Shown here: in pieces, positions 57,298-61,300 of the stretch
Layout of the letters: each line of letters begins with the position of its first letter
Numbering within the stretch: position 1 is the first letter of the stretch
Source of the DNA: an uncultured Flavobacteriales bacterium
GTDB lineage: Bacteria; Bacteroidota; Bacteroidia; Flavobacteriales_G; Salibacteraceae
DNA: 64,000 nt
Assembly: GCA_943788775.1 (NCBI GenBank)
Contig: CALSRO010000006.1
Location: 1-64,000 of the forward strand
Direction of reading: 5' to 3'
Notes under the pieces: model-generated
What the model was told of the DNA's origin: nothing
What the model saw: only the letters and a program-made list of their open reading frames with translations
Database searches by the model: none
Program-made: the position numbers and the translations under genes

Positions 57298-57410
57298 ATA
57301 AAAGTTTAATCCTTCTAAAAAACTGTAAAATCAAAATATTAGAAAGCTAAAATATTTAGTAATAAGACTATGTTTGTTGTTAGCTATCGGTGAAAAGTTG
57401 TCAGCCTTTA
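57298..57410. other. AT-rich intergenic segment
   Basis: Short AT-rich stretch with no gene, promoter match or terminator that I can support. It precedes the repeat island. Confidence 0.4.
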
Positions 57411-57467
57411 GCTATCAGCTTTCAGGGATATACATAAAGTGAAAAGCTATCAGGGATATACATAAAG
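57411..57467. repeat. Two imperfect direct repeats ending CAGGGATATACATAAAG
   Basis: The 17-base unit CAGGGATATACATAAAG occurs at 57423-57439 and again at 57451-57467, period 28, each preceded by a GCTATCAG-type stretch. Similar GCTATCAGC/AGCTTTCAG words occur inside the dnaE gene (58.66-58.73 kb), suggesting a repeat family. Confidence 0.75.
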
Positions 57468-57506
57468 AATAATTGACTTCAATAAAAAAACTAAAACGAG
57501 TAGGAG

Positions 57507-57542
57507 ATGAAAAACTTTAAGCAATTGAAAGTGTGGAGTTAA
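57507..57542 (+). pseudogene. Start of a four-helix-bundle (S23/IVS-type) gene, cut short
   Basis: The ATG at 57507 encodes MKNFKQLKVWS and then stops (TAA). This resembles the well-known N-terminus of bacterial four-helix-bundle/IVS proteins (MKNFxxLKVWQ). Only the first 11 residues survive, and the DUF559-linked repeat begins 13 bases later at 57555, so an insertion probably removed the rest. The family match is to a short motif and is moderate. Confidence 0.5.
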
Positions 57543-57554
57543 ATCGAAGCCCGT

Positions 57555-57680
57555 CCCCTCTTGAGAGGGGTGCCCGTAGGGCGGGGTGTGTAATAAAGGG
57601 AAACGAACACACCCCAACATCTACTAACCTCCGACTACATCGGAGCTAAGTATCTGTATCCCCTCTCAAAGAGGGGATGA
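57555..57680. repeat. Hairpin-rich interspersed repeat, copy 1 (about 126 bp)
   Basis: Parts in order: palindrome CCCCTCTTGAGAGGGG; small hairpin GCCC-GTA-GGGC; inverted arms GGGGTGTGT / ACACACCCC (57583-57591 and 57607-57615); hairpin CTCCG / CGGAG (57629-57645); and the end palindrome CCCCTCTCAAAGAGGGG (57660-57676). The last 115 bases align without gaps to copy 2 (58181-58295) with two differences. Confidence 0.9.
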
Positions 57681-57724
57681 TGAAAGGAATGTAATGAGGT
57701 TGAAAAAAAGACAAACAACGACAT

Positions 57725-57763
57725 CCCCTCTTGAGAGGGGTGCCCGCAGGGCGGGGTGTGTAA
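57725..57763. repeat. Partial repeat copy just upstream of the DUF559 gene
   Basis: The first 39 bases of copy 1 recur here with one difference (57577 T versus 57747 C), ending 11 bases before the DUF559 ATG. The right half of the repeat is missing, so the gene occupies the position where the right half would start. Confidence 0.88.
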
Positions 57764-57774
57764 CTAAGTAACAA

Positions 57775-58161
57775 ATGAAAAAGCGAAAAATAATTCCATA
57801 CAATTCAGAACTAAATAAGCTCGCTCGTGAACTTCGAAATAACAGTACGCTAGGAGAGGTTTTGTTATGGAAAAAATTGCGCGCAAGGCAATTTGGTGGA
57901 TATGACTTCCATAGGCAAAAGCCATTATTGAATTTTATCGTGGACTTCTATTGTCCTGCGCTTGAGCTAATCATTGAAGTAGATGGTAATAGCCATAATC
58001 GTTTAGATGTTGCCGCAAGAGATGCTGATAAAGAAGCTGCTCTAAAAGAATATGACTTGACTGTTTTAAGGTTTACGGAAGTTCAAGTGCGTTTTGAAAT
58101 GGAGGATGTGCTAAGAAAGCTGGAGGCGTATGTTAAATGGTTTGATGAAGAGAATGGGTGA
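57775..58161 (+). CDS. DUF559 family PD-(D/E)XK-like nuclease, bracketed by repeats
   Basis: A 128-residue protein of the DUF559 family, which has the fold of Vsr-like/PD-(D/E)XK endonucleases. The core FHRQKPLLNFIVDFYCP contains the catalytic-site Asp57, and IIEVDG gives Glu68 and Asp70; an N-terminal Glu28 (LGEVLLWKKLR) is also conserved. A C-terminal helix follows VLRFTEVQV. The gene stands between a partial repeat (57725-57763) and a full copy (58165-58295). Small size, intact active site and repeats on both sides suggest the protein acts on, or moved with, these repeats; this is inference. Confidence 0.85.
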   Translation: MKKRKIIPYNSELNKLARELRNNSTLGEVLLWKKLRARQFGGYDFHRQKPLLNFIVDFYCPALELIIEVDGNSHNRLDVAARDADKEAALKEYDLTVLRFTEVQVRFEMEDVLRKLEAYVKWFDEENG

Positions 58162-58164
58162 ATT

Positions 58165-58295
58165 CCTCCCCTGAAAAAGGAGGGGTGCCCGTAGGGCGGG
58201 GTGTGTAATAAAGGGAAACGAACACACCCCAACACCTACTAACCTCTGACTACATCGGAGCTAAGTATCTGTATCCCCTCTCAAAGAGGGGATGA
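58165..58295. repeat. Hairpin-rich interspersed repeat, copy 2, abutting dnaE
   Basis: The left palindrome here is a variant (CCTCC ... GGAGGGG), but 58181-58295 matches copy 1 at all but two positions. Its end palindrome runs straight into an ATG (58292) in the dnaE frame, so the repeat forms the immediate 5' side of dnaE. It begins 3 bases after the DUF559 stop. Confidence 0.9.
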
Positions 58296-58303
58296 AAAAT
58301 AAA

Positions 58304-61300
58304 ATGTTAACCAACACTCACACATATTACTCCTATAAATTCGGGACATGGAAGCCTGAAGCGCTGCTGAAACAATCGGTGGAGTTGGGCTATGATAGCA
58401 TTTGTATTACCGATATCAATAGCACTTCAGCTGTGATTGAGTGCATTCGATTGGCCAAAAACGAGATACCTATTCGGGTTATTCCAGGCATTGATTTTAG
58501 GAATGGAGCGGATCAACGGTTTGTGGCAATTCCAAAAAACAACCGAGGATATCGAGCTGTCAATGAGTACTTGACCTATCACTTACATCACGAAGAACCA
58601 ATACCTGCGCTGGCGCCAGATTGGGACGATGTATGGGTTATCTATCCTTTTGATCGGCTGTCGGCCATCAGCCGTAAGCTTTCAGTGGGAGGACTGAAAG
58701 CTGAAAGCCAAAAGCTGGCGGCTAATTCGTTCATTGGCATTCGACCACAAGACATTCCGCAATTGCGGCTATCACCATTGCGCCATCAATTAGCTAAGCT
58801 GGTGATGCTGCCAACAGTGACATTCGAAAATCAACGCGACTTCAATACGCATCGCTTATTGCGTTCCATCGATAAGAACTTGCTGCTGAGTAAACTCCCG
58901 AAAACAGAAGAAGGAGATTCTCGTCACGTACTATTGCCAAAGAAGACGCTACTGGAGTTCTATGCCGAATTCCCAGAAATTGTGCGAAATACTGAAGCCA
59001 TGCTGGAGCCTTGTGAGATGGACTTTGAGTTTCAATCCAACAAAAACAAGCAGGTATTTTCTGGTTCTCGGCAAGACGATATTGAGCTACTGCGTGCGGA
59101 GGCAGAAAAGGGGTTGCGATACCGATTTGATAAACCGGATCGGAAGGTTTTGGATCGAGTAGAGCACGAGTTGAAGGTCATTCATCAGATGGGGTTCTGC
59201 TCTTATTTTCTCATCAATTGGGACATTGTAAACTATTCTAGATCCAAAGGATATTTTCATGTTGGTCGTGGAAGTGGTGCGAATAGTTTGATAGCTTACT
59301 TGTTGAAAATTACTGATGTTGACCCTATTGAGTTAGATTTATACTTTGAGCGTTTCATCAACCCGCATCGGACCTCGCCACCCGATTTTGACATTGACTT
59401 CAGTTGGACAGATCGCAACGATGTGACGAAGTATATGTTCGATAAACACGGTTGGGATCGAGTGGCCTTGCAGGCGACTTACAGCACATTCAAAGACAAG
59501 GCAGTTTCACGCGAATTAGGTAAAGTATTGGGAGTGCCAGCAGCAGAGATAGATATGCTCCAGAAACTTGCTCCAAGACACAACATTGGCAAGTATGGCG
59601 ATCTCATTCTCAAGTACGGGGCGTTGATTCAAGACTTTCCCAGTCATCTCAGCATTCATAGCAGCGGTATTCTTATTTCAGAAGAACCAATAAGTACTTA
59701 TAGCCCTACGTTCATGCCGCCTAAGGGGTTCCCTACCATTCAGTTTGATATGATTGTGGCGGAAGACTTGGGCTTGTACAAGTTTGATATTCTGAGCCAG
59801 CGCGGTTTAGGTAAAATCAAAGATTCGGTAGAAATCATTCGCCAAAACAGAGGTGTTGAGGTAGATGTGCATGACATCAAGCGTTTTAAACAAGATGATA
59901 AAATCAGAGTCTTACTGCGCGAGGCGCGTGCAATAGGCTGCTTTTATGTGGAGTCGCCCGCCATGCGGCTTCTACTGACAAAGCTGAGAGCCGAAGACTA
60001 CATTGGTTTGGTAGCCGCTAGTTCGGTTATCCGACCTGGTGTGGCGCGCTCGGGTATGATGCGCGAATACATCATGCGTTTTCGAGATAAGGCGCGCAGA
60101 GAGGCTGCCCGTGAAGCCATTCCGGAGTTGTATGACATCTTAGCGGAAACCTATGGAGTGATGGTCTATCAAGAAGATGTGATTCGTGTGGCACACTATT
60201 TTGCGGATCTCGACCTGGCTGATGCAGATATTCTGAGGCGTGGCATGAGTTGGAAATTCAAGCAACGCAACGAGTTTCATCGCGTGAAGCAGCGGTTTTG
60301 GGATAACTGCCGAAAGAAGGGCTATGGTGAAGAGTTGGTGAAAAAGGTGTGGTTTGAAGTAGAGAGCTTTGCCAACTTCGCTTTCGCAAAAGGGCATTCA
60401 GCGTCTTATGCTGTAGAGAGCTATCAAACCTTGTTCCTGAAAGCCTATTATCCGATAGAATACATGGTGGCCACAGTAAACAATGGCGGTGGCTTTTATC
60501 GACCTGAGCTGTATATACACGAAGCGCGGATGCACGGAGCAGAAGTAGAGGCGCCTTGTTTGATGCGCAGTGAAATGAAGACTATAGTTCAAGGCAAAAC
60601 CATCATTTTGGGTTTTCATGCCATTCGCGATTTGGATAGTAGAACCGTGGGTCTGTTGCTCAAGGCTAGGGAAGAAGCGCCTTTTGAATCCATTGCTGAC
60701 TTTGTTGATCGTGTGTCGGTGGGAGTAGAGCAGCTGGAGCTTTTGGTGAAATCAGGTGCTTTTCGATTTACTGGAAAAAACAAAAAGGAATTGACATGGC
60801 AGTCGCGCTTATTGCTAGGGAAAGCTCCAAAAAAAGACATGCAGCCGCGCCTGTTTACTCCACAGCCCAAACCTTACACTTTTCCGGATTTGTACACTGC
60901 TCCACTAGAGGATGCCTTTGATCAGATTGAATTGCTGGGCTACCCGTTATGTGATCCGTTTATGTTGGCAAAGCACAGCATGAAAGGCGGAATATTGGCG
61001 GCAGATGTGCCTGAGTATTTGGGCAAGACGGTGGTGGCTTATGGTTATTTGGTTACTGCTCGGAAAACCCACACAGCCAAGGGCGAAACCATGTTTTTTG
61101 GCAACTTTATCGACCGCAAAGGTTATTTCTTGGACACGGTGCACTTTCCGCCCGTGGCAAAAGCATATCCCTTCACTGGGCGTGGTATTTACCGTGTAGT
61201 GGGTAAGGTCACTGAAGAGTTTGGCTGCTTTCAAATTGAAGCGGCTGAAATGCATCGCGTGGCCTATGTGGAGGATCCTCGATATGCAGAAGAGCCTGTA

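Follow-up and report, generated by a model that had tools for sequence, protein, structure and literature searches.

The question raised by this locus is whether a small nuclease gene and the structured repeats on both sides of it form one system or lie together by chance. A sequence-only reading of the window, the whole 64-kb stretch of DNA that was analysed, had described two full copies of a hairpin-rich repeat, one partial copy and a DUF559 gene. The coordinates below agree with that description, and the 128-aa open reading frame scores 95.9 bits against the PF04480/DUF559 profile, for which the cut-off is 20.6. Positions are those of the window.

57507 to 57542, forward strand: 12-codon remnant (MKNFKQLKVWS*) of a four-helix-bundle gene that is whole in relatives at the same site (comparison)
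57554 to 57680, forward strand: full copy 1, an L motif, a 15-nt spacer and an inverted R motif, a REPIN-like pair (triplex scan, single-stranded DNA fold)
57555 to 57589, forward strand: L triplex motif of copy 1 (triplex scan)
57609 to 57677, reverse strand: R triplex motif of copy 1, its third strand towards the L motif (triplex scan, fold)
57724 to 57763, forward strand: single L motif (40 nt) immediately 5' of the gene, the motif proper at 57725-57759 (triplex scan)
57775 to 58161, forward strand: DUF559 (PF04480, YcjD/Vsr-like, PD-(D/E)XK) predicted nuclease, 128 aa (profile, alignment, model)
58165 to 58295, forward strand: full copy 2, a degenerate L motif (about 58165-58207), a spacer and an inverted R motif (comparison, single-stranded DNA fold)
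58224 to 58292, reverse strand: R triplex motif of copy 2 (triplex scan)

The two full copies are nearly identical and gap-free, as first described (95% identity over 128 nt between 57565-57692 and 58180-58307, and 98% over 116 nt in a second comparison). The single L motif, with 98% identity over 40 nt, stops 11 nt short of the ATG at 57775, also as described, and copy 2 ends about 10 nt upstream of the probable dnaE2 start codon (58304). The repeats are indeed structured, since folding as single-stranded DNA gave z = -7.6 for copy 1 and z = -5.0 for copy 2 with equally good shuffles in 0/200, but they are not a new type of hairpin. In the L motif of copy 1 the pyrimidine (Y) arm CCCCTCT is followed by TG, the purine (R) arm AGAGGGG, the linker hairpin TGCCCGTAGGGC and a third strand GGGGTGT, which mirrors the purine arm with T allowed opposite A, giving G.G and T.A triads. 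The R motif of the same copy has a 42-nt linker that is itself a hairpin, with the core TCCGA/TCGGA (TTCGA/TCGAA in the relative G005). A full repeat is thus two opposed motifs and the partial copy is one complete L motif, not a truncated remnant; the first description was right about the copies, and this reading refines it.

Scanning all 64 kb for triplex motifs returned matches at 57555-57589, 57609-57677, 57725-57759 and 58224-58292 only, all four with the Y, R and third-strand order and 0 mismatched triads. On their sequence, these repeats fit the BoxC/PIT/TM class, the bacterial intrastrand-triplex repeats that follow an antiparallel purine-motif rule (Holder et al. 2015, PMC4666352), with the window linkers (12 and 42 nt, both hairpins) longer than the 1-6 nt loops that the published finder allows; many motifs in relatives have 3-nt linkers. 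The third strands of the L motif at 57724-57763 and the R motif at 58224-58292 face inward and so bracket the DUF559 gene. The spacers of copies 1 and 2 are identical, so one copy derives recently from the other, and local duplication may explain the high likeness of the two.

The nuclease keeps the catalytic Asp57, Glu68 and Asp70 that had been read from the sequence, and E28, D57, E68, D70 and H74 are invariant in an alignment of 53 sequences. A structure model of the protein (pLDDT 87) has its best PDB matches in NGO0050 (3hrl, the top match, TM-score 0.89 on the target), the homing endonuclease I-Bth0305I (3r3p; Foldseek probability 1.00, E 2.5e-3; hmmsearch E 1e-3), PvuRts1I and Vsr (1cw0). 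The predicted fold matches the Vsr-like one shared with I-Bth0305I, and YcjD had earlier been placed in the PD-(D/E)XK superfamily with Vsr as a relative (PMC1189080). The PADLOC defence-system and PHROGs phage libraries gave nothing beyond weak matches, and phage records held 2 matches.

The pairing of gene and repeat is not particular to this locus. When the triplex rule was applied to the 80 DUF559 genes of GTDB genomes that are most similar to this one, a motif was found at most 300 bp away in 72/80 loci and on both sides in 44/80; the remaining 36/80 genes do not have motifs on both sides. Motif density is 7.4 per kb at 0-150 bp from DUF559 and 0.10 per kb at 2-5 kb. For comparison, shuffled flanks carried a motif in 0/1600 cases, control genes of the same contigs in 33/319, and non-ORF DNA far from DUF559 held 0.62 motifs per kb. 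A second, independent set, taken from a profile search and plasmids, had the motif at 26/30 DUF559 loci, and seven remote members of the DUF559 clan had it at 0/7. An inverted repeat spanning the gene, our measure of terminal inverted repeats, exceeded the 99th percentile of controls in 46/79 loci. Among the hosts are Bacteroidota, Pseudomonadota, Ignavibacteriota, Kiritimatiellota, Thermodesulfobacteriota, Nitrospirota, Cyanobacteriota and Deinococcota. The sequence-only reading had proposed the pairing as a system while allowing that it could be accidental; its recurrence across these phyla supports the proposal and speaks against the accident, and DUF559 genes of relatives mostly standing without repeats, a pattern named in advance as contrary to the idea, is not what was found.

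Finding this pairing depended on the detector. A fixed core pattern (GGGGTGCCCGNAGGGCGGGG) recovered it in few relatives because the linker hairpin varies, and this was resolved by inspecting flanks by eye and then by the triplex rule. Generic stem-loop strength was of no use, as the terminators of control genes score higher, and flanks defined by ORF ends hid repeats since the reading frame of many DUF559 genes runs on across the right arm.

The third strand covaries with its hairpin. Among hairpins near DUF559 (3-nt linker, third strand not required), the sequence that follows fully matches the hairpin's own purine strand in 34%, as against 5% with swapped partners. Far from DUF559 the values are 26% and 4%, as would be expected of gene-free copies of the same repeats. 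The third-strand base is G opposite G in 696/712 positions and T or A opposite A in 340/348, in counts that come from near-matching arms. Along the nuclease tree the motif class changes 12 times against a shuffled mean of 37, a figure inflated by near-copies. We also observed that the linker hairpin can differ within one genome with the pairing kept (in G053 and G094: GTCAAAGC/GCTTTGAC, GTCAAAAC/GTTTTGAC and CCAACGC/GCGTTGG), so the linker hairpin may be selected or may act as a family tag.

At the level of genomes, a CCCCTC-type motif is present in 40 of 149 Bacteroidia genomes, strong DUF559 in 73 and both in 35 (OR 13, p = 5e-9; p = 4e-4 when DUF559 is permuted within families). No DUF559 was detected in 5/40 motif-positive genomes, and a backward-read control pattern is nearly absent from the 149. 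The genome of the window has a single DUF559 gene, and its repeat occurs nowhere except beside that gene. The clustering of repeats at DUF559 that had been suggested as a check is seen in this genome, and over the 149 the motif tracks the gene; repeats spread genome-wide without a link to DUF559 were found in neither.

The empty site that had likewise been suggested as a check exists in the nearest relative by dnaE2 (G010, 84%), which keeps both neighbours and has neither the gene nor the repeats. G010 also lacks the four-helix-bundle remnant and most of that remnant's repeats, so the difference exceeds the DUF559 unit. In another relative, G004, the DUF559 gene occupies the site that it has in the window. 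In G005 the site before dnaE2 is a pair-gene-pair arrangement with diverged arms and kept stems (TCCGA/TCGGA here vs TTCGA/TCGAA there; GCCC/GGGC vs GCC/GGC and GTCCG/CGGAC), and G001, of the same genus, has three repeats without DUF559. As the four-helix-bundle gene is whole in relatives and a remnant here, this position is a hot spot for insertions. A side observation concerns this gene itself: its remnant at 57397-57542 (23S rRNA intervening-sequence-like) comes with ATCAGC-type tandem repeats, and relatives (loci L141, L142, L146 and L150) keep the whole gene and such repeats before dnaE2, which suggests another gene-plus-repeat unit.

Insertion of the DUF559 unit extends to coding genes. 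By eye count, about 40 of the roughly 155 DUF559 matches listed for the 149 Bacteroidia genomes lie in frames of at least 700 aa, and 16 host frames were typed by NCBIfam. They are leuS (six loci, two sites), ileS, metH (two sites), recJ (two loci), acsA, hsdR, a ligase-associated DEXH helicase, a SiaA-like phosphatase/sensor and a CaiB-type CoA-transferase. The host protein is split around the in-frame nuclease and its arms, which translate to peptides such as SPSPLGEGRGE. The embedded nuclease has a dN/dS of 0.03-0.07, a rough value since dS is high. In Sphingomonas a DUF559 unit lies between sufB and sufC. Within one genus the insert in recJ is present in G055, G129 and G183 and absent from G096 and G157, and the insert in metH is present in G133 and G060, absent from G162 and represented in G101 by an insert-like remnant without the nuclease. 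Apart from the metH of G101, the recJ and metH genes without the insert have no motif at the site, so the whole unit looks to have arrived, or left, together. These with and without pairs add to the empty site of G010, and presence and absence at orthologous sites demonstrate mobility in the evolutionary sense, as judged from sequence comparison. No target-site duplication was readable at the recJ, metH and window sites, where host loops vary too much. Since the same gene-repeat pair is seen across many phyla, even inside essential genes, DUF559 probably supplies the partner enzyme that this widespread family of bacterial repeats has long lacked.

Two further observations were made on the host genes. 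Of the two recurrent DUF559 insertion sites in the leuS of Bacteroidota (loci L164, L165, L167, L175, L181 and L193), one precedes the EVFTTRPDTIF strand and the other lies between ARAKNW and TTMPGWAG. In the metH of G183 (locus L244) a different repeat (CGTCATTGCGAGGGAGGAACGACCGAAGCAATCTC...) sits in the loop that carries DUF559 elements in G133 and G060, and this loop is a shared insertion hot spot.

We think it probable that the locus represents a single-gene element of very wide distribution, in which the DUF559 nuclease acts on inward-facing triplex ends and repair copies the unit. The arms would fold in single-stranded DNA, as in replication or repair; the nuclease would recognise and then cut or nick the folded arms or similar sites; and repair would copy the unit to new places, much as happens with homing endonucleases and in REP-RAYT systems. 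Those BoxC/PIT/TM repeats that have no gene nearby would then be nuclease-free derivatives or leftovers, comparable to MITEs beside transposons. Several observations weigh against this view: motifs in genomes with no detected DUF559 (5/40 motif-positive genomes, and G001), TM copies in E. coli strains that lack ycjD, insertion sites at which no target-site duplication was readable, window linkers longer than the published loops, and the 36/80 genes that do not have motifs on both sides. Nuclease-driven mobility is something that we infer, as would be the 'repeat maintenance' of the sequence-only reading. The wider claim is more tentative, and we would put it a little short of an even chance: that this is a new class of mobile element in many phyla, with a Vsr-like DUF559 nuclease as its sole protein, triplex ends and in-frame, non-stopping entry into essential genes, from which the BoxC/PIT/TM repeats, of unexplained origin since the 1990s, are nuclease-free derivatives.

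The explanation that survives best beside this one is a stricter variant of it, in which the L-R pair is the empty target and the gene enters only the spacer of an existing pair, by cutting and gene conversion. The homing-endonuclease fold would suit this, as would the pair-gene-pair arrangement of G005 and the L-R pair of the window that adjoins an L-gene-R arrangement. However, the motif-free recJ and metH sites (G101 metH excepted) point to arrival or loss of whole units, and between the window gene and copy 2 there is no R motif belonging to the gene itself, and we regard strict homing as unlikely though worth keeping in mind.

Another explanation keeps the nuclease at home. A host DUF559 enzyme would remove or repair triplex obstacles, and its gene would be kept near the repeats for expression control or self-protection. 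The Vsr-like repair fold (PMC1189080), the connection of triplex motifs with genome rearrangement (PMC4666352) and the strong purifying selection on the nuclease are all consistent with such a role. A housekeeping gene, though, would hardly be so patchy within genera or lie in frame within leuS, ileS, metH and recJ, and several genomes have many motifs together with several embedded copies, which makes repeat maintenance improbable.

It is also conceivable that the triplex repeats owe their movement to some enzyme other than DUF559, be it a REP-associated Y1 transposase or an IS, and that DUF559 is a passenger between them. Y1 transposases are common (96/149 genomes) and have a weak association with the motif (OR 2.3, uncorrected), and a passenger gene too could insert in frame. 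However, with DUF559 held fixed there is no association between Y1 and the motif over the 149 genomes (p 0.68), whereas that of DUF559 persists with or without Y1. The genome of the window has the motifs and no match to the Y1 transposase profile (PF01797), and the same cargo gene over many phyla would be unlikely for a passenger, so that we find the passenger role quite improbable.

GC-rich stems on both sides of a small monocistronic gene could be ordinary transcription terminators or UTR hairpins, but we consider this very improbable given that the third strand covaries, that control genes seldom have motifs, that motifs also lie within open reading frames and that the earlier tests cited by PMC4666352 saw such elements act neither as promoters nor as terminators. 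An accident, or a local tandem duplication of a hairpin round an unrelated gene, would account for the identical spacer of copies 1 and 2 but is hardly credible for a pairing repeated at 72/80 and 26/30 loci across phyla, with the same architecture and diverged arms in G005; as a full explanation it is refuted.

The element that we prefer as an explanation resembles several known systems. With BoxC/PIT/TM it shares the build of the motif, in which a third strand mirrors the purine arm that pairs with a pyrimidine arm, as well as the G.G, T.A and A.A triads and the opposed pairs. The published repeats were described as intergenic and without an associated mobility gene (PMC4666352), whereas those studied here flank a nuclease and occur also in coding genes, and in the window their linkers are longer hairpins. 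Small structured repeats in opposed pairs, a partner enzyme gene between them and gene-free copies are shared with REP/REPIN-RAYT systems. There, however, the partner is a Y1 HUH transposase (TnpA-REP), and here it is a PD-(D/E)XK Vsr-like protein with no HUH/Y1 domain; the DNA structure here is a triplex motif, and the GTAG-type tag is not conserved, the sole GTAG lying in the loop of the linker hairpin where the base varies (CCCG[A/C/T]AGGG). The nearest mobile-element protein by fold (3r3p) and profile (E 0.001) is the Vsr-like EDxHD enzyme I-Bth0305I, which is housed in a group I intron; around the present gene and within the embedded frames no intron or intein was noticed, and the ends are triplex motifs. 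Rickettsia palindromic elements lodge palindromic DNA in frame within protein-coding genes and are not known to carry a gene; the elements here share the in-frame lodging but bring a nuclease domain into the host protein. YcjD of E. coli and NGO0050 (PDB 3hrl) are of the same DUF559 family and are known only as predicted nucleases, with no proposed repeat partner in the literature searched. The kind resembles enzyme-linked repeats and homing elements; what is new is that this enzyme, these end structures and insertion in frame into essential genes occur in combination. That a DUF559 nuclease in this role is undescribed, as the sequence-only reading had believed, agrees with our search of open-access full text (subscription papers and preprints being outside its scope), which returned no paper linking DUF559, ycjD, COG2852 or PF04480 to intrastrand-triplex repeats.

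A partner nuclease makes the open question on these repeats directly testable, as E. coli K-12 has both the repeats and a DUF559 member, ycjD. The published TM_ECO no. 9 sequence was located in the ycjD-fabI gap of an MG1655 record; a mismatch in one of its stem pairs had kept our strict triplex scorer from detecting it. The triplex paper states that mobility activity was not found in the neighbourhood of TM sites, and neither ycjD nor DUF559 is mentioned there (PMC4666352). In about 3300 of 5426 genomes ycjD is at the sapF-fabI place, with an efflux operon there in others (PMC12817139), and E. coli strains without ycjD still carry TM copies. If our explanation is true, a large nuclease family that is still uncharacterised would gain a role, nature would offer an enzyme with possible recognition of triplex DNA, and the extra domains found in frame in bacterial LeuS, IleS, MetH and RecJ would be accounted for.

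Some minor observations are added here. Two E. coli loci (L173 and L174) have ycjD and the eefRABCD efflux operon alternating in the sapF-fabI gap between lineages. At loci L009 and L010 the L motifs 5' of DUF559 are tandemly duplicated along with about 60 nt of flank. Finally, at locus L048 another repeat (GTTGTACTGAGTAAGTCGAAGTAGGGG) apparently lies within the loops of the triplex motifs beside DUF559, which suggests repeats nested in repeats.
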